Assembly (NCBI RefSeq): GCF_964275005.1 | Contig: NC_092692.1 | Span: 14,840,084-14,904,083, forward strand | Length of the DNA stretch: 64,000 nt | Direction: 5' to 3' | Origin: Diadema setosum | Lineage: Eukaryota > Echinodermata > Echinoidea > Diadematoida > Diadematidae | Shown here: piece after piece, positions 8,651 through 63,991 of the stretch | Position numbering within the stretch: the first letter of the stretch is position 1 | How the letters are laid out: each line of letters begins with the position of its first letter | Program-made: the position numbers and the translations under genes | The notes under the pieces: generated by a model | Told to the model about the DNA's origin: nothing | Seen by the model: the letters and a program-made list of their open reading frames with translations, nothing else | Database searches by the model: none

Positions 8651-8742
8651 ACTAAACATTAATATAACAGTCCATGCTCGGCTTTCTGATGATTCTGAGG
8701 AAAGCAAAAAACAATTTGTCTTCTCTGTCTCTTTATGTGTAG

Positions 8743-9000
8743 ATGGTTGAGCTGTTTCCTGGTACAGGTGAATACCTGTACCAGCACCAACTCACAGAGG
8801 TGACCAAAAAAGCTCGCTGCACTTGGGTGGCCTGCTACCTACTGTCATGTTTCATGGCAGCAGAAGAAATTTCAGTGTACAAGCATGGGAAAGCAGAGAC
8901 CAAACCTCACCCTCCAGCAGGTGTCCTCTTTGGCTGCATTTGTGAAGAGGCACCCTTCCCAAACGACCTGTTATGGAAGGTGGGCCATTGTGCTGACAGA
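8743..9000 (+). pseudogene. array unit 4: BEN-like exon
   Basis: Same exon with a few replacements near the end (NDLLWKVGHC). The GTAAGT donor is retained. Confidence 0.4.
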
Positions 9001-9889: not shown

Positions 9890-10029
9890 TTAAATTCATG
9901 TTTATAGTCTACTACTTTTTAGCAGACAGTACTGTGGGCCCATAGATTCAGGAGCAGGCATGGTCTGTCTGTATGCCGCCGTACACATATTTCACAGCAG
10001 TTGCCCGATGACGTCAACCACAGGATAAC

Positions 10030-10356
10030 ATGTTTCCAACACTTTATTATCCAGATATCATCCAGATATCTAGGAAATTGCAAATTAAACAGCAATTATT
10101 ACATGCGATCAGATCTCGAAACAAGAGATATGATAGAGAAAAAGAGTCTGAATCTGCCCCAAGAAAGTTATATTCAGACATGGTCTTTACAGATGAGAAG
10201 AAGGCCCCACGAGATCTGAAACAGGTTCAAAATTTTAAAAATATGAATGCCTCCACCAAGGATGGATTAAAAAGACAAAATTTAGCAGATGACTTCCAAA
10301 CCGTGATAAATCAATTTCACCAAAGTGATATAATGCAAGAAATCATACAAACCTAA
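10030..10356 (+). pseudogene. array unit 5: PRDLKQVQNF block
   Basis: Copy downstream of the MITE, with QNFKNMN in place of QNFKNKN and MQEIIQT at the end. Confidence 0.5.
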
Positions 10357-10418
10357 AATAACCCGCCGTCAATCATTCTTTACACTGATGAACAATTGAT
10401 GGATCTAAAAAGCATTAA

Positions 10419-10870
10419 TGGGACTGGTCACGAAAAGGATTGTTTTATGGTCATGCTGACAGCACAGCAGATGAAGAGAGATTGCCACTCTGCGTTGTCT
10501 TCAAAAGAAAACCATTGCCCAAGGAGAAGTTCCTGGCTGGCGTCATCGTCAGAGCGCAACACAAAGGCTGGATGGACGAGGGTCTCATCAATGATTGGCT
10601 CTTGTGTGTATGGGGTAGACATGACGCAGGGCACAACAGACGGCGCAGTCTTTTGGTGCTCGATGCATTCCGCTGCCACAAGACGGACGGGGTGTAAGCA
10701 ACAATGCGTCAGATGAATGTTGATCTGGCAATCATTCCTAGGGGAATGATGTCCCTTCTCCAGCCACTTGATGTTTACATTTAAAATAAACCCTTTAAGG
10801 ATGGGCTCCATTGTCGGTAGACTGATTAGATGATCACCGGGGGAGTTTTCAAATTTGCAAAAATCTAATT
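10419..10870 (+). pseudogene. array unit 5: pogo DDE fragment
   Basis: Catalytic-core fragment with an added stop after HKTDGV and other substitutions. It is more decayed than units 1-4. Confidence 0.8.
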
Positions 10871-10963
10871 AATAAACATTAATATAACAGTCCATGCTCG
10901 GCTTTCTGATGATTCTGAGGAAAGCAAAAAACAATTTGTCTTCTCTGTCTCTTTATGTGTAGA

Positions 10964-11221
10964 TGGTTGAGCTGTCTCCTGGTAAAAGTGAATACCTGTA
11001 CCAGCACCAACTCAAAGAGGCGAGCAAAAAAAGCTCGCTGCACTGGGGTGGCCTGCTACCTACTGTCATGTTTCATGACAGCAGAAGAAATGTCAGTGTA
11101 CAAGCATGGGAAAGCAGAGACCAAACCTCACCCTCCAGCAGGTGTCCTCTTTGGCTGCATTTGTGAAGAGACACCCTTCCAAAACGACCTGTTCGGGAAG
11201 GCGGGCCATTGTGCTGACAGA
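10964..11221 (+). pseudogene. array unit 5: BEN-like exon
   Basis: Diverged copy. A one-base insertion shifts the frame within the KKSSLHWGG/KKARCTGVA segment, so the halves read in different frames. The acceptor and GTAAGT donor remain. Confidence 0.4.
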
Positions 11222-11972
11222 GTAAGTGAGGATGACACTGTCTCTGTCTTTACATGAATATGTTTCAAACTTAGTTCTGTTTATGAATTTCTATGTTACA
11301 CAAGTAGAAATTATGTCAACGATGTGATGACTGATAATGAGTTTCACATCTTATGAATGGACTTATAAATATATATTGAGGTTTTATAGAAAAAGTAATG
11401 CTGACTTTATTTCAATCCACACAATTTTCACATAATACAATCAGTTATATCAAATATGTTTTTATTTATGTACACTTATGGGTATCAATAACCTTTGTCA
11501 AATTATCTCTTTTTAAAAATATTGTAGGTAAAGAAGAGAAAGGATAACAAGTGGCAGAAAGAAGTCAAAGAACTAGAAGCTCAGGGGATGCCGAAGGGGA
11601 CGAGTGCAAAAAATCTGGTTAACTTGGGACGGAAATGGCATTGAAAGCAAGAAAATACAGGGACTAAAAGTTTCAGACTGGTATGTTAGTGAACTAGTGG
11701 ATAATTATAATACCCCTTACTATTAAATTCATGACTGTTTAGTCTACTACTTTTTAGCAGACAGTACTGTGGGCCTATAGATTCAGGAGCAGGCACGGTC
11801 TGTCTCTATGCCGCCGTACACATATTTCACAGCAGTTGCCCGATGACGTCAACCACAGGATAACATGCTTCCAACACTTTATCATCCAGATATTATCCAG
11901 ATATCCAGGAAATTGCAAATTAAACAGCAATTATTACATGCGATCAGATCTCGAAACAAGATAAAAGAATAG

Positions 11973-12446
11973 GTGTCCGAATCTGCCCCAAGAAAGTTAT
12001 ATTCAGACATGGTCTTAACAGATAAGAAGAAGGCCCCACGAGATCTGAAACAGGTTCAAAATTTCAAAAATAAGAATGCCTCCACCAAGGATGGATTAAA
12101 AAGACAAAATTCAGCAGATGACTTCCAAACTGTGATAAATCAATTTCACCAAAGTGATATAATGCAAGAAATCCTACAAACCAAAAATAACCCGCCGTCA
12201 ATCATTCTTTACACTGATGAACAATTGATGGATCTAAAAAGCATTTATTGGACTGGTCACGAAAAGGATTGTTTTATGGTCATGCTGACAGCACAGCAGA
12301 TGAAGAGAGATTGCCACTCTGCGTTGTCTTCAAAAGAAAGCCATTGCCAAAGGAGAAGTTCCTGGCTGGCGTCATCGTCAGAGCGCAACACAAAGGCTGG
12401 ACGGACGAGGTTATCATCAATGATTGGCTCTTGTGTGTATGGGTAG
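11973..12446 (+). pseudogene. array unit 6: PRDLKQVQNF block fused in frame to pogo GHEKD
   Basis: This is the longest open version (157 codons). It runs through MQEILQTKNNPPSIILY and DEQLMDLKSIY into TGHEKDCFMVMLTAQQ without the TAA seen in units 1-5. It therefore shows the ancestral reading between the two blocks. Confidence 0.5.
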
Positions 12447-12720
12447 ACATGTCGCAGGGCACAACAGACGGCGCAGTCTTTTGGTGCTCGATGCATACCG
12501 CTGCCACAAGACGGACGGGGGTGAAAGCAACAATGCGTCAGATGAATGTTGATCTGGCAATAATTCCTGGGGGAATGATGTCCCTTCTCCAGACACTTGA
12601 TGTTTACATTTAAAATAAACCCTTTAAGGATGGGCTCCATTGTCGTTGGACTGATTGGATGATCACCGGGGGAGTTTTCAAATTTGCAAAAATTTGGCAT
12701 CAACCAAACATTAATATAAC
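12256..12720 (+). pseudogene. array unit 6: pogo DDE fragment
   Basis: The pogo core has a small deletion after CVWV and an altered frame around the second Asp motif. QTLDVYI replaces QPLDVYI at the third Asp motif. Confidence 0.75.
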
Positions 12721-12794
12721 AGTCCATGCTCGGCTTTCTGAAGATTCTGAGGAAAGCACAAAGCAATTTGTCTTCTCAGTCTCTTTATGTGTAG

Positions 12795-13080
12795 ATGGTT
12801 GATATGTCTCCTGGTACAGGTGAATACCTGTATCAGCACCAACTCACAGAGGCGATCAAAAAAAGGTCGCTGCACTGGGGTAGCCTGCTACCTACTGTCA
12901 TGTTTCATGACAGCAGAAGAAATGATGCAGCGGGCCAGCCTGGTGGAGTGTGATAACACAATTTGTCGGCAACTGTCGAATGTCAAGTGGCCAATTTATT
13001 CCCATGGAGCCCCCCAGCCGGCAGCGATGGACGTTATGTTTGTGGGAGGACAGGATTGTCCCCTCCATCAGCACCATTGA
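12795..13080 (+). pseudogene. array unit 6: BEN-like exon, alternative 3' half
   Basis: After the shared PGTGEYLYQHQL segment this copy continues as TAEEMMQRASLVECDNTIC, unlike the FGCICEE tail of units 1-5. The same alternative tail occurs at 15700 and 24496, so it is likely the original exon and the other tail a rearrangement. Confidence 0.4.
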
Positions 13081-14040
13081 GCATGTGGCGCAAGCCCCCG
13101 CGGTCTCCATGGCGGCCTGCTCAAAGGCGCGTGTTAGTTAGCAGCATGGTAACCACTCCTTATTGGCATCATAGCGCTAAATTATTATTGTTTGTGCATG
13201 ATTTATTTCATTGTTGGATTGACTCGTAAGACTCCGGACGTTCATTTCATAGCACTCCCACTTATAACGGAGTTTTGTCATACAACACGAGCTGACTCTT
13301 GAATAGGTAAGGGCATAAACAATTGTTTTGTGATTATAATTATTAAATACGTATTTTGCAAATATCTTATTTGTTTGTTTGCTTTGACAATATTTACATT
13401 GCAAATTAGTGGGATTGTATTATTACCAACATACCTCTATTTAATCGTTGGTTGGTGAAATATATTATTTATTACTGTAGTACGTATTCAGAATACATGT
13501 ATCTTCTTATTAATGTTAGCGATATCCAGTATGTTATATGCTTTGTACCGCGATATCTCTTTATGATTTATGATTTAGATTTTCATTACGAAAATATCAT
13601 TATGAGAGATGGTCGTTATTTAAACACTTGAATATATTCATTTAATTTGAGGATTGTTTGGTCAATCTACAGGAGTTTTATAGTGAAACTGAACTTCTTT
13701 TTTTGTGTAGGTGGCGCATACCTAGGTCATAACGGATCGGTTGGCGAGGCGCCGTGAATGGTGTAATTTGCTCTTATAGGAGACGTCATCTTGTGCTGTG
13801 TTGGTTTTCACTCTTTAATTATCTTTTAATTTTGTTTTCATTTTTTTTAACGATATTTATAATTCTCACTCTGTTTTTTTAATTATCTTAATAAATAAGC
13901 AATCATTTGAAATTCAAAATATTGCTTTCGAGTTCTTCCTTTCCACCTTCTCTTCAAGTGTTTTGAGCCAGGGATTGTTAATATGTGTGAAGTAGATTTT
14001 CATATGTACGTATTCAGTCTGTCACGTTGAAAAGATATTA
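13081..14040. other. AT-rich stretch with no gene recognised
   Basis: No convincing coding or repeat structure is visible. A small GC-richer patch (GGCGAGGCGCCGTG near 13744) sits in otherwise AT-rich sequence. Confidence 0.4.
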
Positions 14041-14159
14041 TTCCTCCCTGAAAAGATATTTATCATATAGAAGAAGAATATCATACTTTTGAGAGGATTG
14101 CAGGACACGAAACTTCAACAGCAAACATTGCAATTGCTGAGTACTAGGAATTTTTCCCC

Positions 14160-15170
14160 GTGAAGCGTGACAATAGCATCCATGGAAACTGCAAATTGAA
14201 CAGCAATTATTACAAGCGATCAGATCTCGAAACAAGAGGTATGATAGAGAAAAAGTGTCTGAATCTGCCCCAAGAAAGCTATATTCAGACATGGTCTTAA
14301 TAGGTGAGAAGAAGGTCCCACGAGATCTGAAACGGGTTCAAAATTTTAAATATAGGAATGTCTCCACCACAGATGGATCAAAAAGAAAGTGATATAATGC
14401 AAGAAATCATACAAACCTAAAATAACCTGCCGTCAATCATTCTTTACACTGATGAACAATTGATGGATCTAAAAAGCATTATTGCGAATGAAAATAAGTT
14501 CATTTTTCATGCATATGGATGTATAGGCAACTATACTTATAAATAAACTAATCAGTTACTAAGTCATGCAAAATTTTAAAGGTTATATTTAAACTCAGTA
14601 GAAAAGAAGAGAGGACGAAAAATCTCTTTAAAAATCTGGTCATGAATTAAATTCCTCCTGCTCCGGAACAAAAGATATGTATGACTTTTAATAAAACTCT
14701 CAATATTTCATTTTTGTGACCAGTCTTGCTACGACTGGTCATGAGATTGCCACTCTGCATTGTCTTCAAAAGAAAGACATTGCCCAAGGAAAAGTTCCTG
14801 GCTGGCGTCATTGTCAGAGCACAACACGAAGGCTGGATGGACGAGGGTCTCGTTAATGATTGGCTCCAGTATGTATGGGGTAGACATGACGCAGGGCTCA
14901 ACAGACCGTGCAGTCTTTTGGTGCTCGATGCGTTCTGCTGCCATAAGATGGACGGGGTGAAAGCAACAATGCGTCAGATGAATGTTGATCTGGCAATCAT
15001 TCCTGGGGGAATGATGTCCCTTCTCCAGCCACTCGATGTTTGCATTTAAAACAAACCCTTTAAGGATGGGCTCCGTCGTCGTTGGACTGATTGGATGATC
15101 ACCGTGGGAGTTTTCAAATTTGCAAAAACCTGGCATCAAAAAAACATTGATATATCGGTCCACGTTTGGC
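14160..15170 (+). pseudogene. seventh, heavily decayed array unit
   Basis: The stretch 14190-14480 matches the PRDLKQVQNF block with a deletion in its middle. Unrelated sequence follows, also seen in part at 24690-24870. Then 14740-15130 matches the pogo DDE core (RLPLCIVFKRKTLPKEKF, LLVLDAFCCHKMDGVKA, LLQPLDVCI). The 5' part of the pogo piece is missing. It has diverged from the array more than any other copy. Confidence 0.7.
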
Positions 15171-15460
15171 TTTCCATTTCAAATCATCCAAATCAGTCTG
15201 TTTGAGTATTAACCAGATCCTAACGGGGACAGGTTCCCACAATGTAGACAGCAGAACTAGCTAGGAAAACAAATGCCCGGCAGCTGTGCTATATAGCAGC
15301 ACGCACAGCTTGCTGTCACATCACGACAATATCCTAGCTGCAGAGCTCAAACTGCCTGTTCATTTAGCTGTGACTTGTGCTGCAAGTGTGCAAAAATGTC
15401 AGATTCTGAGGAAAGCACGAAGCAATAATATTTGTCTTCTCTGTCTCTTTCGGTGTAGAT

Positions 15461-25081: not shown

Positions 25082-25285
25082 ACTCGATCCTGAGAAGAGA
25101 CTAGAAATGTCGCTATGGCGACTGGTATGCCTCCGCCATAATGCACGATTCTCCTAATAGGTCTATAGTACATGTGGACAATGGGTGATTACATTGTAAA
25201 ATGCAATTCAAATGTTCATGTATTGTCTTGCAAGTTAATGGAAGAATTTTTTATTACTGAATACTGATTCACTAGATGGGAGGAA

Positions 25286-25735
25286 ATGTTTTCTCTAGTC
25301 AAACTAAAATACAACAAGTTGCCAGTCATGATGATGTTGGGCCGAGATATTACACTGCCAGTGGATATCACCATCAGTCAACCTACGTCAGAAGAAACGG
25401 AGAGAGATAATTACGCACAACATCTCAGAGATAAACTAAACGATGTGCATGAGATTGCTCGACAAAAGCTGGTGCTAGCTCACAATAAGCAGGCAAAGCA
25501 ATATGATCGCAACACTCTACTGGTACAATACAAAGTAGGCGATTGGGTTTGGCTGTATCACGTACTAAGAAAAAGGGGGGTATGTCCAAAGCTTCTTCCC
25601 AAGTGGACAGGACCATTCATGATCATACACAAGTTATCAGATATGGTGTACAGAATCCAAGAATCGAGCAGATCCAAGCCCAAGGTTATTCATGTTGATC
25701 GGTTGAAGCCTTATCATGGTCCTCCCCCGAGTTAA
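25286..25735 (+). mobile_element. Ty3/Gypsy pol fossil: integrase C-terminal part
   Basis: This is an old retroelement fragment recognisable from PVMMMLGRDITLPVDI, VGDWVWLY, PKWTGPFMI and a final HVDRLKPYHGPPPS, the usual end of Gypsy-type integrases. Protease, reverse transcriptase, RNase H and the integrase core are not present next to it. Fragmentary and not functional. Confidence 0.85.
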
Positions 25736-29925: not shown

Positions 29926-32900
29926 GTGGACCTACATCTTCTCCAGTCTCTACACAAGCTGCAGATGATCCTGGACCTTTTTCCAGAGCAGAGGGGCTGA
30001 CCTTTACTCATTTTGCCAACCCACAGCTGGCCAAGGGGAGGATTCAGTGTTTCAAGAATGGACTAGTTCTAGAGATTTTTGATTTTTTTCCAAAACAGTA
30101 AAGTTGTAACAGATACAATGTTTGTTCTTGCCCATGACAGCAATGCCATTCATCATTCAAAGCCTGACAGTGTACGCCTAAAAGTAGGAAACGTCGTCAA
30201 GAGGAGGAAAACACTACGAAAGAATAAAAAAGCTGCGCTACCTGCCTTTCTCCAAACAGAGTTCATTCCACCCTCAAGTTCTCAACCTGCACCAAAACGC
30301 AACCTTGAAGATCTAAATGAAGAAAATGAAGCAATGAAAGCAGACATAAAGAACTTGGAGTCAAGATTGACAAGCGAAGAAGAAAAGGCAGATCGTCTTG
30401 GAGCTCAACTAACAAGGCTGGTGAAACAGCAGCAGGCCAGTATAGCCATCCATGCAAAGGACATGAAAAGTCTAGGAAGGGAGATGTCAAATTGACAAAG
30501 GAATATGACAAACAATCCGAAGAATTGGATAAAGTGAACAAAGTTGTTGACCAGTTAAGGAATAAAGTGGCACAGAAATCGGCTTCATTGAAGAACATTT
30601 CAAAAAGACTCCGGAGAAGCACAGAAAAGCAAAAACAAGAAGAGCAGGAAATCGAAGAACTGAAAGATACCAACATGCAGCTGGTGGAGCAGACTGAGCA
30701 AATGTCAAAGACTCTAGAACAAACGACAGAACTTCTTATGTCAGCAAAGAAGGAGAAAAGAACAGCTCTGAAAACGCTTAGCCAAGCGAAAAGAAGAACT
30801 GAAAGAAGGAAGGCAGAAAGCATCCTACATAATGAAGCTGAAATAACACAACTCAGAGAAACTGTAAAAAACAACAACAATCGAATCGCTGAACTGGAAC
30901 AGTTAAACATACTCCTCGAAGATGAAGTACTCCATACCTTTGAAGGAGGGAGGTACATCAGTGAGCTGCGAGAGACAATCATGATTCTGCTGACAGAGTG
31001 TAATGTTAGTATGAGCAAGATGAAGATGGTAATAAATACAGTATGCAAGAACCTCCTTGGCAAGCTTCCGGAACGCCTTCCATCCCTCGGAACTTTGGAC
31101 AGAATTCTCTCAGAGGCGAAGTTTGTTGCCCAAAACCAAATATTCAAGTGCATGGAGGAAGGAGGAGATCCAACCACATTAACTGGAAACACACTACACA
31201 ATGACGCCACTACAAAATTCAATCATCATTACCAGGGGTTCCAAGTCACACTTTTGAACGGCAAGCAGATGACAATAGGCTTGCGAGAAATAGGGGCAGC
31301 GGACACAGAAACACTGATGGATGCCTTCTATTCATCTGTGGAAGAAATAACAGCAGCGGTGTCAGACAGTACAGCTGAGAAGCAAACCAAAATTGCTGGG
31401 CTTATTACATTATTGAAGAACACAATGGGGGATCAGGGGCCAACAAATCCACAATTCAACAGTCAGGTACAAGCACTCCGGGAAACTCTTCTACCCAAAG
31501 TAGTTGAAAATTGGGAAATGCTCAGTGAGGAAAACCAGAGGGAGATTGCAAACATGGGGAACTTTTTTTGCAAGATGCACCTGCTCGTGAACTTTGCTAC
31601 CGAGGCTGACAAGGTCCTGAAAGTCAACGAAGCGGATGTAGTTGCAGAAGGAAGGAACCCATATGCATTTGGCACAGAGAGTGGTGGTGCTAGACTAGTT
31701 AGGACAGCAGCCAAGGCATTCACTTCTCATGGGAGCGACAAGTCGGGCATGACAGCAGACTGGGAAACGTATCTAGGAGAACAAGGAAAAACGAACCACT
31801 TAGTGACGTTTAGGGGCAACCGTTTCAATATCCTTTTCTATGATGCTGGGGCCACATACTTCCATCGCCAGGACTTGTACCATTTCATATCAACCATACC
31901 AGATCCAAACAACCTGATCAGAGCAGTCAATTTTGATATACAACAGAAGGTTTACCTTGCACAACTCCGGGCTCTGGGGCTCATCGACAAACTAATTACA
32001 GGACCATTCTGGAGACTTGTAGAAAACACAGATTCTATCTTGGAACTGAATGACCCATTGAACGAGATGCTGCAAAAGATGAAAGGATGGGCGGAAGATG
32101 CAACACCACTGTTTACAGGGGATGTTCCATTTCAAGGTGCCATAGTCCATGATGATGACATTTACCAAGAACTCCTGAAGGAAACTGATGACGCGGACTT
32201 CAACACCTACACACAAGCAGCCCTGGAAATGGTGCTGTCTGCAATGATTCTTATCTTGGAGAGGCAGGCCAAAGATCAGCTGGAAGGAGGCAAGTTCTTT
32301 GCACCATCTGAACAAATGAAGACATCAGCAAGAAATGTCCCAACAACCAACACTGTTTCTGAGCGTGATTTTGCCATTCTAGATGTACTTACACGCATCA
32401 AACCAGCCGCAGCAAGCCACGCATACGAAACCTACATCATGTGGCTGAACAACAGGCCTAGTAAATGGTTGGAAACACTGGACAGTGAAGAGAAGGAAAA
32501 ACTTCTGCATATGGCGCGGCACAGGTACCCAGAGATACGCCAACAGTACACTCAACGGAAGGATAAACTGAAAGCGCAACACAAAGTCCCTGAGAGCTAA
32601 ACAGAGCCGACAGGAGCACAAAGAAGAGAAGGGACGGCTGGATAAAGTGGCTGCAACAGAAGGCATAATCCAATATGGAGGGGTTTGGACATGTGAGGAA
32701 GTTGACACAAGGGTCATGGGACTTCCAGTAAATGAGAGAAAGGGAGCGCTCATTGCCCAGATACAGTACCAGAAAAAGTGCTCAATGCAAAAGGAAGTGC
32801 AGGCCTCTTTAGAAAATCCAGCCAAGGAGTGGCATTCACAGAGGACCAACTCCAAGCTAACCTCACAAAAATACTGGACCTTAACAAAATCACAACGGAA

Positions 32901-33275
32901 AATGTAAAGGGAGCTAAGTTACTCCACTACTACCCATCAGAAAAGGTCACCTCAAATGTCAACCAAAGCAAACTGGATCTTCACAACAAAATTGGAATGC
33001 AACGGAACCAAATAATTGCCAAGCAGCAGCAGCATCTTCTTCCTCTGTACCAAAGCGACCCCGAAACTCTCCTGCAAAAGAAAGTCAAACAAAAATGTCG
33101 AGAAACTGATGGCACTGTCGAGTGGTTCTCTGCGGAAGTAACAGGAATCTACAGCAAAAAGAGGGACAACATGCTAACCGAATACACAATAGTGTATGAT
33201 AGTTTTCCGGATGACGAGTGGCATTTTCCCCTCCTCAAAGATATGAAAAATGGTGACCTCATCATCATGGAGTAA
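29926..33275 (+). CDS. exon-repeat gene, terminal long exon: coiled coil, uncharacterised domain and Tudor-like tail
   Basis: Acceptor CTTTGCAG, phase 1 in. It starts GPTSSPVSTQAADDPGPF and LTFTHFANPQLAKGRIQCF. A long coiled coil (about 30300-30930) follows. The conserved core 30940-32560 has CMEEGGDPTTL, MGDQGPTNPQF, RTAAKAFTSHGSDKSGM, FRGNRFNILFYDAGATYFHR, ALGLIDKLITGPFWRLVEN and PTTNTVSERDFAILDVLTR. The stretch 32600-32800 carries YGGVWTCEEVD. The C-terminus 33070-33260 (VEWFSAEVTGIY, EYTIVYDSFPDDEW, FPLLKDMKNGDL) looks Tudor/Agenet-like. From memory, this architecture belongs to a multi-copy uncharacterised family of invertebrates and fish. The frame changes about four times (near 30095, 30490, 32590 and 32775), mostly beside A or T runs. 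It may be a young pseudogene or carry sequencing indels. The 702-codon core (30492-32600) is intact. Confidence 0.65.
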
Positions 33276-34480: not shown

Positions 34481-34498
34481 TTATTTCCGGAAGAGTTT

Positions 34499-34560
34499 GT
34501 GTGTGTGTGCGTGTGTGTGTGTGTGTGTGTGTGCATGCGTCTGTGTGTGCGTCTGTGATT
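34499..34560. repeat. (GT)n microsatellite
   Basis: GTGTGT run with few interruptions, downstream of TTCCGGAAGA. Confidence 0.85.
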
Positions 34561-34794
34561 GCCATCAACCGCGGACCACTCCATCAAAAACTACCTTCTA
34601 ACCGCGGACGTACGTGCTATGGGGGACCGTCCACGGTTGAGATAACGATTCAGTCGTATCAAATTTACGACAATAGAGAGGGTGTGTGAAAATTGGATTG
34701 ATCAGAGATTCGTCCGCGGTTTCATGTAAAAGGGCAACTTGGTGGGTACGATTTGTGTAAGCAACATCGACCTGTGTATCACTGATGTTTCACA

Positions 34795-51270: not shown

Positions 51271-51326
51271 AAAAAGATGCCGGCTCCTCAATAAACACTG
51301 AAGCAATGGCAGAGTCATCATCAAAA
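51271..51326 (+). CDS. SET-recombinase gene, exon 2
   Basis: Acceptor TTTTTTGCAG, donor GTGAGT, 56 bp, phase 1 in and 0 out. It encodes KDAGSSINTEAMAESSSK after the split Lys codon. This is a low-complexity linker ahead of the SET module. Confidence 0.6.
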
Positions 51327-52500
51327 GTGAGTGCTGCACCCATCATAGTATTTCATACATTGTGTCTGTTGATTTTGCTTTGTGAGCCCAGAAAAAGCAA
51401 GTAGGAAGAAATCATCTACATAATACACATAGCTCAATATGTAAAAAAAAAAAAAAAAAGAAGAAACAAGCAAACAAATGTGTTGCTGAAATAATGCTCT
51501 TTTCATTTTGATTAGTTTGCGAAATGCCAGAATTCATTTGCACCTGTTATAGCAAAGATATGCTTGAAAATGTAAATAAGTTGCTGTATGGATTAATTTT
51601 TTTTTTTCTATTTTGGAGTCACCCCCTTCTGCATGCGTGTAGTAAACACAAACCTCCACTGATCTTGGAAATGAGATGTAAAGACAGAAAAAAAAAAAAC
51701 TGTGTCATATTTCACCAGAATAGCCAACTTTGCGTGTTTTTTTAATGTAATGTTTTCACATGATATTTAAAGATTTGAAATTAATAATTCATTCTTCCTG
51801 CCCGCTTTTTCTGGGATTAAAGGTCTGGAAGTATCACTGTTCATTACTTTGTGCTTTTCATCGAACCTTGCTCTCACTTCCAAAGTCAAGTGTTGCAGGG
51901 GAAAGAAAAAAAAAAACAATTTAATAGGCAATGGGAACAGCCATGTCCTGTTTTCAGAGGATATGTTTATATGTGGGTTTCATACAAAACTACAAAGGTA
52001 ATTAATCACACTTGTATGCTTTTTACAGTTACATGTATGTTCATATCAAATTTGTAAGTGTAATTGAGCAGGATGTTTACTAATGATATATGGTGTATCT
52101 GTGCATAGTCTGTATTGCATGGTGCTATCTAGATTTTACTTTCTCACTAAGATATAAAAATAAAGTGTGCATGCATTTGTCCTGACCCTCCTATCAAGAT
52201 CTTGATGGAATAGTTTTGGGGGTTGATTTAAGTACTCTGTAAAGCTTATGAAATCAACTGACACTCGGGATCGACTTTCCACCTTAAATGTAAAGCCTCA
52301 TCCACAAGTGTCAAATCTTTTAAAATTTAGTGTACTTTATTACCAATAGATGTGATTTTTATTGAGCAAAAAAGCATTTGCGTATTAAAAAGCTATTTTG
52401 TCTTATTGGTAAACAGTTTTATAGGTGTAGCACTCATATGCAATTTAATATTTTTAAATAACAATAGTACTAGAGTGCATCAAAATTACAGTGGACATGT
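51327..52500. other. intron 2, first part: no gene recognised
   Basis: AT-rich with A and T runs. No repeat-family copies appear until about 52500. Confidence 0.4.
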
Positions 52501-52652
52501 ATAAATAGCCTGGTTTATCGAAACTACTCTAATCAGATGTACACATGCAATAGAGAACAGTCCTCGATGGCATTACATGTAAATAAACATGTGTGCCATA
52601 CGACAGATTCCAACTGGTAGGAAGTAAGTGGGGGAAAGAAAAGGGGATGATT

Positions 52653-52654
<2 letters not shown>

Positions 52655-52683
<29 letters not shown>
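52655..52683. repeat. (CT)n microsatellite
   Basis: Uninterrupted CTCTCT run within a repeat-family copy, at the position where other copies have only two to four CT units. Confidence 0.9.
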
Positions 52684-52686
<3 letters not shown>

Positions 52687-53948
52687 GATTCTACTTTTTA
52701 TCAAAGAAGCTCTTGATTCATCTATTTCTTTGGCATGGACGAGAACATTAGGTTTGAGTTTATGTGGATATATCCAAAGCAAGTGTATTATACATGATCT
52801 AGAGATATGTGAAGCGTGATTTCTTACATGTAATTGAGGACTGTCCTCTATTTGCTGCAAGGACTATTGCATTAGGTTTGAGTGTATACGGATACCAAGC
52901 AAGCATATTATTGTAATCTATGTGCATTGAATGGGATGCGTCGTTTCTCAACTAAAAGTAGTCAAACTTAATATATGCATACAATAGAGAACAGTCCTCG
53001 ATTCATGTGATAAATGAAACATGCATGGTAAATTCTTACTACAGATTCCAACTGGTAATACATGTAAGTGTTCAAGGAAGAAAAAAAGAGATAACCGTTT
53101 CTCTCCTGAATTCTACTTTTTTTTTTTCGTCAAAGAAGCCCTTAATTCATACAATGTAGATCTACAACCTGTATTTTTGGCATGGATCAGAACATTCATA
53201 GTTGAGTGTTTTATTGATGCCAAGCAAGTGTATTATACATAATATGTATTGTACATCTAGGTATAGACTGGATGTGAAGTGTGATTTTTTTTTTTTTTGT
53301 GTCTGTTACATGCAATTGAGGACTGTCCTCTATTGCCTGTGTACATGTACATTTGAGTGTACTGTACAACATATGGATACCAAGCAAGCAAAATAAACTG
53401 TACATTGAATGGGAAGTGTGTTTGTTTGCCTGGTTTATCCAAACTATTAGTACCCAAACCTGATGTACACATGCAAAAGTGAACAGTCCTCATGGTACAA
53501 TGTATGAAACGTGTTCGTGGTATATATTCCAAACTACAAATTCCAACTGGTAATATGTATTCTCAGTGTTCTGCAACATTGTAGGTAAAAAGGATAACTG
53601 TCTCCTGGATTCTACTTTTTATCAAAGAAGCTCTTTCAATTGGTTCATAGATATATTTTTGGCATGGACTAGAATATTAGGTTTTAGTACATGAGGATAT
53701 ACCAAGCAGTCATCCTGTGGGGACCAGGAGTGGTCATCTCCAACAATGCTGACATGAAAGAAAGGATTCTCAAAGAGCCTATACTTAGCACCCATCCAGG
53801 CATCAGAAAGATGAAAGCTCTGGCTATAGATCCTATGTATGGTGGCCAGGAATAGACGGCCAACTGGAACAGCAAGTGAAGAGCTGTCCAAGTTGCCAGC
53901 AGAGTCAACACACAGCCCTGCTGCATCGCCTATTCACCCATGGGAATT

Positions 53949-54712
53949 CGAGGGATCAACGATAGATAAGTATTTAGCCGTTAGAGGGATGTACGTTGTA
54001 TCAAATGCTTATTTTTGATTGGTCGCCGTGCGTTCTAGCTATCATGGATCGAGTTTCCGGTTGTGCTGTGTACTTCCGGTATATATACGAGTATACACGG
54101 CTTGCAAATTGCTACCCGGAGAATCAAATTTTATCAGTTTGTTTTGTCGTTTCATCCATCATTATGGACGGTTCTGAGAACAGAGATTTGCAGAGGATGA
54201 CTGTCCCCCCCCCCCCCCAACTTCGTAAGTTTTTGACTGACAGATGCGTACCATGCAATGGTAAACGGATGCTAGACGAGCTCCTCAGTCTTGCATTGAA
54301 AGCCACACGACCACGTACGATGTGATGATGCAGCCCTGTGATCGTGAAGAATCCCTGCGCTAGCGGCGTAGGGTGACCGCAGCGGATATGGCTCCGAGCG
54401 TGACTTCAACAGTAATAAAGGCCGTGAATTGGAAAGCTGAGCTCGCCGATCTTCTGTCCATCTTCCTCTCTTCGATAGACATTTTTGTGTATCTGTCATC
54501 ATACTGCGACTGGACTCCAGTCGCAGTATGATGACAATATTTTACTGTTACCTTTAGAGAGCGTGACCCGCTTGCACAATGATCTCACAACATAAACACT
54601 AGTACATAGTGATCACCACCGATACCGGAAGTGGGCGTCACAACCAAAAGGCTAAAAAAGAAAATGTCGGCACCATTGGCAAATATCTTACAACTATATT
54701 GTCGATCCCTCG
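53949..54712. mobile_element. DNA element inserted in the Gypsy fossil, CGAGGGATC ends
   Basis: Ends CGAGGGATCAACGAT and ATTGTCGATCCCTCG are inverted, flanked by AATT on both sides. 764 bp. It contains a 41-nt hairpin and a C run at 54207-54218. Its longest ORF (109 codons, 53996-54325) has no recognised domain. TATATATACGAG near 54086 could be a TATA-like element. Confidence 0.75.
54495..54535. repeat. perfect hairpin, 19-bp arms
   Basis: GTCATCATACTGCGACTGG, then ACT, then its exact reverse complement CCAGTCGCAGTATGATGAC. It lies inside the AATT-flanked insertion. Confidence 0.95.
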
Positions 54713-55496
54713 AATTTCCTGACAAGCCATGGAGTCGTATTCACTGTAATTATGCCACCATCGGAGATGAGAATGTCCTGATCACTGTCGATGCTTATAT
54801 ATAATTTCGGTAAATTAGATGTGAAGTGTGATTTGTTACACATAATTGAGGACTGTCCTCTATTTGCTTGTGTACTTGAGGTTTGAGTGTATGGATGCCA
54901 AGCAAGCAAATCTTAATCTAAGTGCATTGAATGGGAAGTGTTTATTTGCCTCTTTTTTTTCCAAATTACTCAAACCTGATGTACACAAATACATGCAAGA
55001 GAGAACATTACTCAATTCATGTAAATGATGAAACATGCATGGTACAAGTATATCCATGCTATAAATTCTAACTGGTAAAACATGTAAGTGTTCAGGGATG
55101 GAAAAAATAAAGATTACCATCTCTCTCCTGGATTCTGCTTGTTATCAAAAAAGCTCTTGGCTCCTACATTGTATTTGGCATGGACTGGAACATTAGGTTT
55201 GAGTGTGGATACCAAGCAAGTGTATTATAATACAGTAGGTAGATTAGATGTGAAGTGTGATTTTTTTACAAGTAACTGAGGACCGTGGACTCTTATTTCT
55301 TGTGTGCATTACATTTGAGTGTATGTGGATGCCAAGCAAGGAAATCGTAATTCAAGTACATTGAATGGAAAAGTGTGTTTGTTTGCCTGGTTTATCCAAC
55401 TTGCTCAAATCCAATGTACACATGCAATAGAGAACAGTCCTCAATTACAACTATTAGTAAATAATAAAACATGCATGGTACATTGTATATCCATAC

Positions 55497-56700
55497 AACA
55501 GATTCCAACTGGTAATAAATATAAGTGTTCATCAAGGGGAAAACAAAAAGATAACTGATGTCTCTCTCTTGGCTTCTACTTTTTTATAATAGAAGCTCTT
55601 GGTTCATAGATCTATTTTTGGCATGGACCAGAACATTAGGTTTGAGTGTACAATAATGGATACCAAGGAAGTGTATTGTACATAATCTAGGTAGATTAGA
55701 TGTAAAGTGTGATTTTGTACATGTGACTGAGGACTGTCCTCTATTGCTCGTGTATGATGTTTGAGTGTATATGGATACCAAGGAATTGTACATAATCTAG
55801 GTAGATTAGATGTAAAGTGTGATTTTGTACATGTAACTGAGGACTGTCCTCTATTACTCGTGTACATTATGTTTGAGTGTATGGATACCAAGGAAGTGTA
55901 TTGTACATAATCTGGGTAGATTGGATGTAAAGTGTGATTTTTTACATGAAAATGAGGACTGCATGTCCTCTATTGCTTGTGTGCATAAGGTTTAAATGCA
56001 TACTGATGGATACCATGCAAGCAAATTATAAAAGGGAAGTGTGTTTATTTGCCTAGTTTGTCCAAATTACTCAAACCTGTTGTACACATGCCAGATTCCA
56101 ACTGGTAATAAATATAAGTGTTCATCAAGGGGAAAACAAAAAGATAACTTATGTCTCTCTCTTGGCTTCTACTTTTTTATAATAGAAGCTCTTGGTTCAT
56201 AGATCTATTTTTGGCATGGACCAGAACATTAGGTTTGAGTGTACATGGATACCAAGGAAGTGTATTGTACATAATCTAGGTAGATTAGATGTAAAGTGTG
56301 ATTTTGTACATGTAACTGAGGACTGTCCTCTATTGCTCAAGTACGATGTTTGAGGTGTACATTGCATGTGGATACCACGGAAGTGTATTGTACATAATCT
56401 AGGTAGATTAGATGTAAAGTGTGATTTTGTACATGTAACAGAGGACTGTCCTCTATTACTCGTGTACATTATGTTTGAGTGTATGGATACCAAGGAAGTG
56501 TATTGTACATAATCTAGGTAGAGTGGATGTAAAGTGTGATTTTTTACATGAAACTGAGGACTGTCCTCTATTGCTTGTGTACATAAGGTTTGAATGCACA
56601 TGGATACCATGCAAGCAGATTATAAAAGAGAAGTGTGTTTATTTGCCTAGTTTGTCCAAATTACTCAAACCTGTTGTACACATGCCAGATTCCAACTGGT
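55497..56700 (+). repeat. ~597-bp direct duplication of repeat-family modules
   Basis: The modules at 55497-56093 and 56094-56700 share the same internal order, including three ~130-bp sub-units each (GTACATAATCTAGGTAGATT ... GAGGACTGTCCTC). They are nearly identical and look more recent than the other copies. Confidence 0.8.
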
Positions 56701-56880
56701 AATAATACACTGTACATGTAAGTGATGTCCAAGGAAGAAGGAAAAAAGATAACCGTTTCTCTCCTGGAATCTAGTTTTTAGCAAAGAAACACTTGGTTTA
56801 TAAAATACATAGATACGGTACTGCAAGAGGGCAACAGGATAGGAACATAGTATGAATTACAAATGTTGCTTTTCTTGCAG

Positions 56881-56998
56881 AGAATGGTCACCAGATCATG
56901 TGCAGTGAAGACAAATCGTAAACAAGATGAATATAAGAAATATCTGGATAAAGACGACCCACAAGGACTTGAAGTCAAACAAGTAAACAAACTGATAG
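56881..56998 (+). CDS. SET-recombinase gene, exon 3 (pre-SET)
   Basis: Acceptor TTTCTTGCAG, donor GTGAGT, 118 bp, phase 0 in and 1 out. It reads RMVTRSCAVKTNRKQDEY then KYLDKDDPQGLEVKQVNKLI. The DPxGLEVxxxNxxIG pattern directly precedes the SET core in KMT5A-like proteins of fish and invertebrates, and it supports joining to exon 4. Confidence 0.8.
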
Positions 56999-57192
56999 GT
57001 GAGTCAGAAAACATTAGCAAGTATTTGGCTAATAGCCAGTGTTAATTAACCAGAACAGCAAGACTTGTTTGTAGACATATTCAATTTTAATGCTCAAGTG
57101 ATAAACAATGCTGGGCTCTATAACTTGTGAACTACCATATTGATCTAATGTACATCTGATTATGTATATATGCATATATATTATATATATAT

Positions 57193-57438
57193 GAAGAGTT
57201 GTTTGCAAAAACCGATAAGTCCATTTTTGAAGATTTTGAAGTACGATCTCTGTCATAAAGTACAAAATAATACCTTTTAAATGATATATTGGTCACTACA
57301 TATACAGGTATATTTCTTAAGTTATGGTCAAAAGAAGCAAAAATTTTCTTATTATTCTCTTTATTTTTCTTGACCTTTAATCGCAAATATCTCCATTTGG
57401 CAAATATGGACTTATCGGTTTTTGCAAACAAACTCTTC
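57193..57438. mobile_element. MITE with GAAGAGTTGTTTGCAAAAAC ends
   Basis: Inverted ends of about 32 bp (GAAGAGTTGTTTGCAAAAAC on the left, GTTTTTGCAAACAAACTCTTC minus its first base on the right), flanked by ATATATAT on both sides. 246 bp. An 8-bp duplication would suit hAT elements, but the flanks are simple sequence. Confidence 0.75.
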
Positions 57439-57962
57439 ATATATATGTATATTATTTTTTTTTTTTAAGGAAATGAGTCTATTTATGGCAGTAGATTTCA
57501 CTAAAAATGCCAATTTCTACCAAAAAATTGTAACAACAAAATATTTTTGTAGAAAGGAAAAAAAAATTTTTGGTCTCTGGATGCAAATGGTGAAATTTTC
57601 TCAAAATCAGATATCTAAAAGGTTCTTTTAGAATCCAACCTAGGAATCATTTATCTCTTGAATCTGTGACCAAAACTTGTCAAAAAACAATTTTTTAAAA
57701 CATTTTGTCCAAGTTGCACACAGGCTGTATTAAAGAGGATCAAAGTCTGTATCATCACAGCCTGTGGATGATAATGGACGATAATGCTTGGATCTAACTA
57801 CTACATCGCACCTTATCAAAATAGTGAATTAAAAAGAATGAAGAAATTAATGAAAAAAGTCAACTTGTGCATTTAGTGCTCATACTCTTCCATTTGAAAT
57901 ACACCCTATACCAAAATATAACACAACATCAACTGATATTTAACCCAGTATGAGCTAATATT
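57439..57962. other. intron 3: no gene recognised
   Basis: AT-rich with A and T runs. No supported feature. Confidence 0.4.
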
Positions 57963-58795
57963 TATACCCCCGCCAAACGAAGTTTGAAGGGGGTATATAG
58001 GAATCAGCGGACGGTCGGGCGGTCGGTCGGGCGGTCGGGCGGTCGGTCCGTTGCAAATCTTGCGTCGCGAACTACTTCCTCAGTTTTCAACCGATTCCAA
58101 TAAAACTTGGCACAGATGTGTGCCTTGGGTTGTAGATGTGCAAGACGTATTTTCTGACAGTACCCAAAAGTACGTTGCCATGGTAACGGCATATTATGGG
58201 CAAAAATGGGTACAAATCTTGCGTCGCGAACTCCTCCCACAGTTTTTGATCAATTTTTATGAAATTAGGTACAGATGTTCATCTGAATATGTTAATGTGC
58301 AAGACACATATTTCCGCAGTGGCAAAAGTGCGTTGCCATGGTAACAGCATGTTATTGGTAAAATATAGGGCAAAATGCTTCATGGCAAAACTGCTTCATC
58401 AGTGTTCTTCCAATTCTCATGGAATTCATATTGAATGTTTGTCTTAGGATATAGGTCAGCATGACACATTTCTTGACAGTGACAAAAAGTATGTTGCCAT
58501 GGTAACAGCTCACATATTATGAGCCAAAATGATGGAAAATTTTGTGTTGCAAACTACTTCCTCAGTTTTTGCCCAATTTCCATGAAACTTGGTACAGATG
58601 TGTGCCTTTGGTTGTAGATGTGCAAGATGCATTTTACGACAGTACCCGAAAGTACGTTGCCATGGTAACGGCATATTAATGGCAGATGATCAAGGAAAGA
58701 TCTTGCGGATTTAACTACTTCCTCAGTTTTTTGACCAAAGCTTATGAAATGTTGTTTTGACCAAAGCTTATGAAATGTTGTTTGGCGGGGGTATA
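57963..58795 (+). mobile_element. non-autonomous element with TATACCCCCGCCAAAC inverted ends and ~150-bp internal repeats
   Basis: The left end TATACCCCCGCCAAAC (57963) and right end GTTTGGCGGGGGTATA (58780-58795) are exact inverted repeats. A GGTCGGGC tract follows the left end. Then about four copies of a ~150-bp unit occur, each with CTTCCTCAGTTTT, an AATTGGCAC-like part and TTGCCATGGTAACGGCATA. A reverse-oriented partial relative is at 1216-1912. No ORF of note. Confidence 0.85.
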
Positions 58796-59080
58796 ACCAG
58801 TCGCTGTAGCGACATTTCTAGTTAACATTTGTTTCAACTGAAATTGATGTAACAAATAATTCCTCCCTGGGGTGGGATGGCTTGTGGATTTCAAATGGAA
58901 TAGCTTGATAATATGCTGGTTTAAAACTTTGATCATACACCTGTTCCAAACTAAAATTGGCATGAGCCAGTCATCAGCAGAATTCTAATGTGCATTTTAC
59001 CACCAAATATTTTGTTTTATCAGTTGATACGTACAGCTTGTCTTGTGTACTGAATTATTGTTACTTTATCTGTCATGAAG
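58796..59080. other. intron 3, end
   Basis: Non-coding AT-rich DNA ending in the acceptor for exon 4 (TTACTTTATCTGTCATGAAG). That acceptor is weak in pyrimidines near the AG but has a T-rich stretch just upstream. Confidence 0.4.
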
Positions 59081-59240
59081 GGTGTGGGATCTTTGCCACA
59101 AGGTCCTTTACCAAAGGGGAGTTTTTACTGCAATATAAAGGTGACGTGATATCAGAGGAGGAAGCAGCAACAAGGGAAGAGAGGTACAAGACGGAGCACC
59201 ACTACCAATTCTTCTATTCCTATAGAGGAAAAACAATGTG
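59081..59240 (+). CDS. SET-recombinase gene, exon 4 (SET domain N-terminal half)
   Basis: 160 bp, phase 1 in and 2 out, donor GTAAGC. Joined to exon 3 it gives LIGCGIFATRSFTKGEFLLQ then YKGDVISEEEAATREERY and FFYSYRGKTM. GxGIFAT and the Y(K/R)G(D/E)(V/L)IS segment are the SET-I beta-strand signature that binds S-adenosylmethionine. Confidence 0.88.
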
Positions 59241-60186
59241 GTAAGCAGTGAATACTTATTTAACAGCAGGTTGTCATGAATGGGATACTTTCTTATCATG
59301 CCCTGATAAAATTGATTGGATCAATACTCTTTAAATGAGCTAATATTGACAGATATGATTTGCTCAAGACTTAGAAATAAGTGTTCCCATATTGAAAAGT
59401 CCAGGGTATAAACTTTGATGCAGTTGAATGTGGACTCGGTAGGCCTAACCTGACTGAATCTCACAGAACCTTATCAGCAGAATAAGCACTACACATGAAA
59501 CTATCCTACATGGTTTAGCATGGCGTTATCCTATAGTGTACATTAATATTGTATGTTCCACAATTTCCACAGCTGGCAATTGGGCTACACATAAATGTAG
59601 TTGCTATGTTTTTGGTACATAATACGGTGACAACCAGGGGCCCGTAAAACAAAGATTTGTGATCAGTCGGTAAATTCAAAGAGTAATTCTGATTGGTTAA
59701 TAGTGGATATGTTGGAATATACATGTATGCGCATGAAACAATGGTCTTGATTGACCAATACCTGTGTCTTTATGATTGATTGCAAACCTCTATGTTATGG
59801 GGGCCTGGTAACACAAACTCTATTAATATGAAATGCTTGATAACACAAGGTGTTTTTATTTCAAGTCATAGCTCTGCAGTGTATTCTACATCATGTCCAG
59901 TTTTTGTTTTCTCTTAAATTTGGAATTTTGTTTCTGAAAGTCCCCTAAACTTTGTTTCAAGGGAATATTTGTGGTCCCTGTCAGAGATGAAGCCAACTAG
60001 TAATCAATGAAGCCAAAATCAAAATTTTACTTTTGTTGTTTTGAGAATGAAACCAAGCTTTTCTCACAATATGGGTAAACTATAAATCACTTAAATTAAA
60101 TGAAATCCAGCCCTGAATTAAATCTTAAAATTCTGTCCAGTACCCAAACTAAGCGAGGACATTATATTGTTCATCATTTATTACAG
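59241..60186. other. intron 4
   Basis: Non-coding, ends in CATTTATTACAG. It contains a degraded palindromic MITE at 59636-59806 (ends AGGGGCCCGTAAAACA and ATGTTATGGGGGCCT). Confidence 0.5.
59636..59806. mobile_element. degraded palindromic MITE, GGGGCCCGT ends
   Basis: Left AGGGGCCCGTAAAACAAAGA and right CTCTATGTTATGGGGGCCT pair imperfectly. Inner TTTGTGATCAGTC pairs with GATTGATTGCAAA. Non-coding. Confidence 0.5.
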
Positions 60187-63100
60187 CATTGATGCAACTG
60201 AGACCAAGTCCAACGGTCGTTTTGTAAATGATGCAAAGGAAGGGACAAGTGAATGCAATTCCAGGATGAGGAAGGTGGAAGAAAGCGGAAAAGTTTTTCT
60301 TTGCTTGTTTGCAATTAAAGACATAAAAGTTGGTGATGAAATTAGGTATGACTACAAGGCACCAAATCTGTGGTGGCGAAGAAAGTGTCGAAGGCGGAAC
60401 AATGAGAGTGAGCAGCTTGAACAAACCAAGGAATCAGCAGAACATGATGTGCCGCTTTTGAGTGAAGTGGCACAAACATCACCAAATCATCACAGCAATG
60501 AGGCATCAGAGGGCCTAGGAGAGAGTGAGCAACTTCAGAAAACCAGAATATCAGCTGAATGTGATCTCGTGCATGAAAATGGAACAGACACAGATTGCAG
60601 TTGTCCAGATCAGGGTTTGAGCAGTCCTCCTGAGGTATCAGAGGAGGAACATGAGGAACTTGAACAAACTGATGGGACATCAGCTGAATGTGATCACGTG
60701 CATGAAGATGTAACAGACGCAGATGGCAGTCAGGGTTTGAGCAATCTTCCTGAGGTATCAAACGGGGAAAATGAAGATCTTGAACAAATTGGGACATCAG
60801 CGGAATGTGATCTTATGCATGAAAACGGAAAAGACACAGATGGCAATCAGGTTTTGAGCAATCCTCCTGAGGTATCAAAGGGGGGAAATGAGAATCTTGA
60901 ACAAACTAGGACATCAGCTGAATATGATCATGTGCATGAAAATGGAACAGACGCGGATGGCAGTCAGGGTTTGAACAGTCCTTCTGAGGTATCAAAGGAG
61001 GAACATGAGGAACTTGAACAAACTGGGACATCAGCTGAACGTGATCACGTGCATGAAGATGTAACAGACGCAGATGGCAGTCAGGGTTTGAGCAATCTGC
61101 CTGAAGTATCAAATGGGGAAAATGAAGATCTTGAACAAAATTGGACATCAGCGGAATGTGATCTAGTGCATGAAAATGGAACAGACACAGATGGCAGTCA
61201 GGGTTTGAGCAATGATCCTTTTGAGGTATCAAAGAAGGAACATGAGGATCTTGAACAAATTGGGACATCAGCGGAATGTGATCTCGTGGGTGAAAATGGA
61301 ACAGACACAGATGGCAGTCAGGGTTTCTGCAGTCCTTCTGAGGTATCAAAGGGGGAGAAAAGGGATCTTGAAAAAACTGGGACATCAGCTGAATGTGATC
61401 TAGTGCATGAAAATGGAACAGACACAGGTGGCAGTCAGGGTTTCTGCAGTCCTTCTGAGGTATCAAAGGGGGGAAATAAGAATCTTGAACAAACTGGGAC
61501 ATCAGCGGAATGTGATCTAGTGCATGAAAATGGAACAGACACAGGTGGCAGTCAGGGTTTCTGCAGTCCTTCTGAGGTATCAAAGGGGGGAAATAAGAAT
61601 CTTGAACAAACTGGGACATCAGCGGAATGTGATCTAGTGCATGAAAATGGAACAGACACAGGTGGCAGTCAGGGTTTCTGCAGTCCGTCTGAGGTATCAA
61701 AGGGGGAAAATAAGGATCTTGAACAAACTGGGACATCAGCGGAATGTGATCTAGTGCATGAAAATGGAACAGACGCAGATGGCAGTCAGGGTTTGAGCCA
61801 TCATTCTGAGGTATCAAAGGGGAAACATGATGATCTTGAACAAACTGGGACATCAGTGGAATGTTATCTCGGTGGTGAAAAGGGAACAGATGCAGATGGC
61901 AGTCAGGGTTTGAGCAGTCCTTCTGTGGTTTCAATGGGAGAAAGTGACCAACTGACAGATGATGACTATGTTCCCGAGTCTGAGGATGTAAGCACAGATA
62001 GTGAAGATGAAGAGTTTATCCCACACAAATCCTGGAGAAAGTATGTGGATCAAACTTCACCAAATCACAGCAATAATGCATCAGAGGAAGAGAGTGAGCA
62101 ACTTGAACAAGCAGGGACATCAGCTGAATGTCACATGTGTCATCAGCCATTGGGCAAGTTGGCACAAGGATCACCAAATCCCAGCAAGTCTGAATGTGAG
62201 CAACAGGCCAGTAAAACTGATAAAGGGACGAAAAAAATAACGGTTATGCGGACACACAACACAAAAGGCAAAAGATTGTGGGACAAAGGCTCATATTGTC
62301 CCTTCTGCAGGAAGTACGTCAAAAAATTGCCCCGTCATCTTGCTGAATTTAAGGGACATAAAGATGAGCTGGATGTAGTTCGATGGAAAGCTACAACTGA
62401 CAAGGTTTTGAAGGACCAACTATTAACCAAGATGAGAAATCTGGGCAATTACTTACACAATCATGCCGTACTTCAAGAAGGAGAAGGCGAGATCATAACT
62501 GTGTATCGACCGAATTATGATGCTAACTATAAGAAGTATGTGCCTTGCCATCAATGCAAAGGATACTTCAGTAAAAGAGAGTTATGGAAACACAGTTGTA
62601 AGTTGGTTCCTGATGAAAATGAGAAGCATGAAACATCTCAAAAGAAGCGAAAACCAAGTTGCATCAAAAAGGGAAGACTTTTGCAACCAGCTCCTGGTAT
62701 GTCCACAAAAGTCAGAGAAATTTATGCAGGCCTACGAGAAGATGAGAATGGTGTCTCCTTTTTTATTAAAGGAGATCAACTGACTAGACTGCTGGCAGAG
62801 AAACTAGCATTTAAACTTGGCCATGATGAAGACCAATTTGATTACATCAGAACCAAATTGAGGGAAACTGGAAGATTAGTACTGGAGTATAGAAAGGTAA
62901 CTGCTGACAAGAATGCAGGATTAGCAGATTTGATCCATCCCAGCAAGTTCACCGACATTGTACAAGCAACCAGGAACATTTCAGGGTTTGATGAGAAGAG
63001 TCATACTTACACAACGCCAAGCTTAGCCCTAAAGCTTGGTCATACCCTGAAGAAGGCAGCTGGTGTTCTTTTGGGTCAGGCAATCATGAAAGAGAATGAA

Positions 63101-63991
63101 GCCATGGAAAGAAGATGCAACCAATTCATCAGACTCTGCGAGCTGAAGTGGACAGAGAGTGTATCGAGTCACGCATTACGCACCCTGAATGAGAATAAGA
63201 GGAACAATCCTACTTACCTACCTGTCACAAAGGATGTAGTTAAACTTACATCATATCTGAAAACTGAGACTGAAGAAGTCATCACAAAACTCAATGAAGA
63301 GACAACAGATGAGGACATATCTAAGGAGTACAGATACCTAGCTGAGCTGACATTGACATCCATAATAGTGTTTAACAGGAAACGATCTGGAGAAGTCAGC
63401 AAAATGAAACTAGATGACTTCAGCAAGTGTAAGCAAGGTGATGAGGTGACTGACGACTATGGCCTGTCCAAATGGGAAGCAAAACTCGGTAAAAACCTGT
63501 GGCGTCTGGAAATTGTGGGGAAGAAACAACGTGCAGTTCCTGTTCTTCTTACAAGTGAGATGAAAAGGAGTATGGACTTGTTGGTTGCTAAGAGAGGAGA
63601 TGCTGGTGTGTATGAGACCAATCCTTATGTGTTTGCCCTGACAAGTTCTAATGGCCACATCAGAGGGAGTGACGTGGTTAGGAAATTCAGCATATCTTGT
63701 GGTGCAAGCAAGCCTTCGTACATAACATCTACAAGGTTGCGCAAGCATATTGCCACGGTCTCACAAGTGATGAACTTAAGAGACAATGAGCTTGATGTGC
63801 TGGCCAATTTTATGGGACACGATGTGCGCATTCACCGGAACTTTTACCGTCTTCCCGATCATGTCATGCAAGTAGCTAAGGTTTCCAAGATTCTCATGTG
63901 CATGGACAAAGGCTCCCTTGGTAAACTTCATGGATCAACTCTTGATGAGGTTCAGCTTGATGAAGGAGAAGGTATGTTATCAACTAAATAA
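60187..63991 (+). CDS. SET-recombinase gene, long exon 5: end of SET domain, 39-aa repeats, zinc fingers, tyrosine recombinase
   Basis: Acceptor ATTTATTACAG, phase 2 in. The first ~65 residues complete the SET domain (IDATETKSNGRFVNDA, CLFAIKDIKVGDEIRYDY). The usual NHS is NDA here, while YDY is kept. An acidic region with twelve 39-residue repeats follows (about 60550-61945). A C2H2-like finger (CPFCRKYVKKLPRHL, ~62295) and a C2HC-like finger (PCHQCKGYFSKRELWKHSC, ~62541) come next. The last ~400 residues resemble a tyrosine recombinase. The Arg box is NRKRSGEVSKM (Arg codon 63383). The second box is TRLRKHIAT, with Thr where the HxxR His is usual. The final box is MGHDVRIHRNFYRLP (His 63818, Tyr 63845). 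Summed with exons 1-4 the frame closes at 1,382 residues. SET part: lysine methylation of histone or other protein (family knowledge). Recombinase part: probably DNA binding; activity unproven. GTATGT at 63973 is a possible donor, so the real end could lie beyond this stop. Confidence 0.85.
60550..61945 (+). repeat. twelve in-frame 117-bp coding repeats
   Basis: The consensus peptide is SAECDLVHENGTDTDGSQG then xSPSEVSKGENEDLEQTGT, 39 residues. Units 8-10 (about 61390-61730) are nearly identical at DNA level, indicating recent expansion. Units 2 and 5 share the variant HVHEDVTDADGSQGLSNLPE, which suggests duplication of a three-unit block. Degenerate half-units (SPNHHSNEASE and SPNHSNNASEE) flank the block. 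Confidence 0.93.

Follow-up and report, generated by a model that had tools for sequence, protein, structure and literature searches.

A gene joining a SET domain to a tyrosine recombinase

We analysed a 64,000-nucleotide stretch of the Diadema setosum genome (NC_092692.1, positions 14,840,084 to 14,904,083 of the forward strand; hereafter the window). In it, a gene that joins a SET domain to a tyrosine recombinase (YR) lies inside a mobile element of about 41.7 kb, which runs from window position ~34555 to ~12 kb beyond the window end and was absent from the initial annotation of this DNA. We consider it probable that this element is a recently active giant (~42 kb) YR transposon that has moved between chromosomes and is aimed at TG microsatellites, its recombinase fused to the SET domain; the SET-YR gene is the only gene recognised in the element. 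Copies are named below by the sequence that carries them (C labels); the window's copy lies on C8, and window numbering is continued past the window end.

Four exons on the forward strand (51271–51326, 56881–56998, 59081–59240 and 60187 onward) keep phase and have AG/GT borders throughout, in agreement with the joining first proposed. The borders of exons 2–4, which a comparison with copies C20 and C9 covered, are identical in both; exon 1 lies outside that comparison, opens at an acceptor and contains a possible start ATG at 51306. The gene had been thought to end at 63991, but a donor (GAAG/GTATGT, 63971/63972) precedes that stop, is present also in C20 and C9, and leads in frame to a fifth exon beyond the window (67392–67645). 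The gene therefore probably continues past 63991 into this exon, which encodes a tail and then a stop; the tail has no Pfam match, and "Myb-like" is our own reading of it. From the ATG at 51306 the predicted five-exon product is 1445 amino acids long with no internal stop. All splicing is predicted from the genomic sequence. Exon 4 (60187–63971), however, lies in an open frame of 1289 codons without a stop (60122–63991) that holds both the C-terminal half of the SET domain and the YR, so that no splicing is needed for that part of the fusion.

The SET domain (PF00856, E=6.2e-17) has its N-terminal half in exon 3 (59081–59240) and its C-terminal half at 60187–60391. Its nearest solved structures are those of KMT5A/SETD8 (E=5.7e-19), which bears out the earlier description of a KMT5A-like domain. 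It differs from KMT5A/SETD8 in being joined to zinc fingers, a YR and a Myb-like tail, and in having NDA where NHS is expected; its C-terminal half also contains YDY. The substitution, already remarked upon, could alter SET catalysis; an older paralog, L009, has NDE at this place, so the motif change is common to an older relative.

The acidic block noted downstream proved to be a 117-bp in-frame tandem repeat (39-amino-acid unit; 11.8 copies, 60550–61947). No constraint was found within it: among nine equal units, one 40-amino-acid unit being excluded, dN was 0.148 and dS 0.124, with no excess of silent changes. Two zinc-finger-like CxxC..H motifs follow (62294–62602), sub-threshold in Pfam (E 0.67) and kept in paralogs.

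The YR occupies 62705–63970 and is supported by residue alignment, an AlphaFold model and fold comparison. The model reached a predicted local distance difference test (pLDDT) score of 79.6, and 47 of the 50 best listed fold matches were recombinases, integrases or topoisomerases. The C-terminal domain, annotated as a recombinase before a structure was predicted, thus holds as a tyrosine recombinase by fold, with predicted activity. The catalytic Arg, Lys, Arg, His and Tyr are present in the window copy (R1166, K1212, R1285, H1311 and Y1320 in the five-exon product; first codon bases 63383, 63521, 63740, 63818 and 63845), including the expected spacing of nine residues between the GH box and Tyr. 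The His of HxxR is replaced by Thr (first codon base 63731), as had been seen. This Thr had been taken as a sign of changed catalysis; it looks instead like a family trait rather than decay, since His occurs at this position in none of 15 family rows and Thr in ten, in a partly redundant set that excludes near-identical copies, broken loci and short loci and in which several rows are closely related. Five of the 15 rows, all paralogs, have no catalytic Tyr. A tree of 13 rows gave few firm forks.

Borders, copies and target of the element

A genome search returned at least 63 matches, fragments and the window included; matched family loci carry L labels. Besides the window, four further copies contain a full-length YR at 99–100% protein identity (C9, C6, C20 and C32), and two are partial (C4 and C81). 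When the search was widened to 20 kb, introns and intergenic sequence proved to be duplicated along with the gene. Between C8 and C20, colinear shared pieces (alignment rows of >93% identity and >150 bp) extended from window position 34518 to 76250, with none beyond. At both borders of both copies a (TG)n run adjoins a constant end, and the same ends were read at C9 (both ends), C11 (5′), and C6 and C32 (3′). On the forward strand the element thus covers 34551–64000 of the window and continues to ~76236, with its 5′ border in a (TG)n microsatellite at 34495–34550. The 84-kb C8 stretch contains three TG/CA runs of ≥16 bp, two of which are the element's borders.

Searched against the genome, 246 bp of the 5′ end matched seven places (100% identity) and 253 bp of the 3′ end matched eight places in full (99–100%), the other seven of the 15 rows for the 3′ end being short internal matches. 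Pairing ends by strand and distance gave element lengths of 41.7 kb for C8, 50.4 kb for C20, 50.1 kb for C9 and 46.2 kb for C4, in which the gene is truncated; the remaining ends stayed unpaired. The C9 copy holds a 5.5-kb insertion with two long open reading frames (ORFs) that read like those of a long interspersed nuclear element. C32 starts within the element. C11 and C6 each run into a 100-N stretch at or near the minisatellite, and C11 (5′ part) and C6 (3′ part) may be one element divided by the assembly.

The flanks were unrelated at all seven 5′ ends and at all five 3′ ends read, out of eight places (~1.4 kb each, blastn, E 1e-5), and all 12 ends read adjoin (TG)n in a single orientation. 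That many places share these two ends but not their flanks speaks for mobility, which we regard as well supported. The target is itself a microsatellite, in which the flanking duplication first suggested as a check for this locus cannot be judged.

These borders also bear on whether the gene is a host chromatin enzyme or part of a mobile element, the two alternatives initially left side by side, and they favour the mobile side. Under the host alternative, a chromatin gene that had domesticated a recombinase would have spread through ordinary segmental duplication, and the introns, the SET domain and the older paralogs at 26–51% identity would suit such a gene. Segmental duplications would not, however, repeatedly break off at one pair of points, in TG tracts and amid unrelated flanks. 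Given the common ends we rejected segmental duplication, and we hold a spread host gene to be quite improbable.

The ends themselves carry ordered sequence. The motif AACCGYGGAC, searched on both strands, occurs five times in the 84-kb C8 stretch: four sites lie ≤180 bp from the 5′ end (34567 and 34600 forward, 34629 and 34712 reverse; span 34567–34721) and one at the 3′ end, whereas base composition predicts 0.06 for the element. An arm at the 5′ end (34560–34578, forward strand, TGCCATCAACCGCGGACCA) is inverted relative to its partner at the 3′ end beyond the window (TGGTCCACGGTTGACGCCA), with 16 of 19 positions matching; 15 of 5000 random 40-mer pairs reached this score. A TG core flanked by such arms agrees with a YR core site.

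Our best inference is that this YR moves the element into TG tracts. The element could also be mobile via another enzyme, with the SET-YR protein as a passenger, a regulator or an end-binding repressor: YRs can become DNA-binding regulators (MrpR was among the fold matches), the HxxR His is Thr here, and some paralogs lack the Tyr. Yet the window copy retains Arg, Lys, Arg, His and Tyr, the inverted arms and TG core suit a YR, and an ORF and Pfam scan recognised no other recombinase gene in the element. That scan covered six further ORFs, with a best Pfam E of 0.098, and genes with introns might escape it. We consider a passenger or regulatory role unlikely.

Paralogs, divergence and points against

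Older relatives were examined for the same order of parts. In L009, whose YR is 49% identical, a SET half with IND for INH lies ~0.8 kb upstream of the zinc-finger-YR frame, on the same strand and in a different reading frame, and a Myb-like exon lies downstream. L009 keeps the order of parts of the element's gene, seen as an order and not as one joined protein. No SET domain was found within 5.4–5.7 kb upstream of L014 and L019; for the remaining paralogs ~1.5 kb upstream was covered, too short to tell. In L014 and L015 (both on C8) the zinc-finger block is repeated and the catalytic Tyr is Cys, and these loci are possible DNA-binding-only derivatives. L019 (C19) and L020 (C10) carry the zinc-finger-YR gene as one 801-amino-acid frame; their 4257-bp loci are 99.46% identical up to the edges, which points to recent copying of this relative too. 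A pattern match at L001 was rejected, as it sits in an unrelated ORF.

Divergence between copies C8 and C20 amounts to 0.7% of non-coding sites (165 of 23,148), with differences also at 13 of 2919 coding and 108 of 1398 repeat sites; the comparison sets aside the C20 DNA matching window 44–56.8 kb. In the intron after exon 4, an insert of ~488 bp is complete in L003–L006, partial in L007 and L008 and absent in the C8 copy (L002).

Several results weigh against an active SET-YR transposon. The HxxR His is replaced by Thr in the YR and NHS by NDA in the SET domain. No constraint was detected between coding and non-coding sites of C8 and C20 (Fisher p=0.12), nor in 578 codons, where six amino-acid changes and one silent change separate C8 from C20 and five and one separate it from C9. 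The partial copies C4 and C81 retain just 277 of 428 YR residues. Up to 1.5 kb away from each of 11 paralog matches the terminal motif is missing, as are TG runs save one, which confines the evidence for TG-type movement to the young copies. Finally, the YR match is weak at the sequence level: PF00589 appeared below cut-off in one of 14 members, and a hidden Markov model (HMM) comparison with five bacterial and phage YRs (FimB, FimE, XerD, XerC and lambda Int) gave E 0.022 and a probability of 2.2%. The boxes were in register in that comparison, and its score of 23.6 against 22.5 for the best of 60 column shuffles is weak and was not relied on. Searches with the single YR sequence matched no recombinase, and PHROGs gave one weak integrase match (E 0.21) in one of 14 members. 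A 14-row YR profile matched, among PDB sequences, a chorismate mutase alone (E 0.24), at chance level, and this match was discarded.

Outside these subjects, the window contains repeated DDE_1-type transposase fragments at 2628–15178 (PF03184, one at E=1.7e-18; ~1.86 kb spacing in the first copies) and a retroelement integrase C-terminal fragment at 25268–25735 (PF22938, PF24626). A 756-amino-acid open frame at 30330–32600, outside the element, has no clear Pfam match and neighbours a weak Agenet match at 32736–33275 (E 0.053).

Proposed movement and known systems

We infer excision as a circle, catalysis and the SET role as follows. The zinc fingers, Myb-like tail and core-binding domain would hold AACCGYGGAC-type sites at both ends, and the recombinase would cut within the TG core that the inverted arms enclose, releasing a circle that carries this core. 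Recombination of this circle with genomic (TG)n by ordinary YR strand exchange would leave TG at both borders in one orientation. Near the site, the KMT5A-type SET domain might methylate a nuclear lysine, in a histone or in the recombinase itself, and this methylation could open, mark or silence chromatin. The SET domain might act by local methylation, by self-methylation or by contact only. We propose only tentatively, as a somewhat doubtful possibility, that a single protein of a living transposon cuts the element's DNA and also deposits a lysine mark, KMT5A-type methylation controlling chromatin at (TG)n sites or timing jumps. An older paralog arranged in the same way suggests that such a strategy has persisted for long.

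No description of a SET-YR fusion was found among the matches listed in the open-access literature. Predicted fish proteins named KMT5A-like presumably have a similar order of parts, so this family may already be present in databases without a description.

Cryptons (CryptonA) and DUF3504 genes are among the systems compared: Cryptons are animal DNA transposons encoding a YR, a feature they have in common with the window element, and animal Cryptons are without terminal repeats in the part of Kojima and Jurka drawn on here (PMC3212892). Unlike them, the window element is ~42 kb long and has inverted end arms (16/19), a TG target and a SET fusion. Neither DUF3504/Crypton nor DUF3435 was among the eight Pfam families matched by the 14 members up to E 1. 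Of the proposal of a mobile Crypton-type element with a captured SET domain, mobility is supported by the shared ends and unrelated flanks, and the Crypton type is not established: DUF3504 is not among the families listed, and the element is giant and has inverted arms.

Starships of fungi are giant YR elements of 15–700 kb with a leading 5′ captain gene (DUF3435) and variable cargo, as far as the cited portion goes (PMC12134995). The window element, at 41.7–50.4 kb across copies, resembles them in giant size and YR. It differs in the place of the YR, which sits in its 3′ half in an exon starting ~25 kb in from its 5′ end; DUF3435 was not listed for any of 14 members, and no cargo was recognised.

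Endogenous nimaviruses of crustaceans also show similarities: they are giant and enter microsatellites or telomeric repeats via YRs with zinc-binding domains, according to the part of that work used here (PMC10871703). Giant size, zinc-finger YR and microsatellite target would also fit a virus-derived origin of the window element. In that same part, nimaviruses have a YR target of (TAACC)n and virus genes, and SET is unmentioned; in the window element no virus genes were recognised among the six other ORFs by a Pfam scan alone, which genes with introns could escape and which included no search for virus proteins. No relatives were found in viral contigs. A viral origin seems to us very improbable.

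SETMAR/Metnase likewise combines SET and a transposon enzyme within a single protein, the enzyme there being the Hsmar1 mariner transposase in a single primate host gene, judging by the portion cited (PMC6326780); here the partner is a YR, in a multicopy element. SETMAR illustrates that a SET-transposase fusion can turn into a host gene, and the SET-recombinase fusion of the window is apparently still travelling. Giant YR transposons have been described in fungi and, as elements derived from viruses, in crustaceans; the window would add one that moved recently in an animal genome, with defined ends and a defined target. Chromatin writing encoded by a transposon, and the choice of sites among microsatellites, could both be tested in it.

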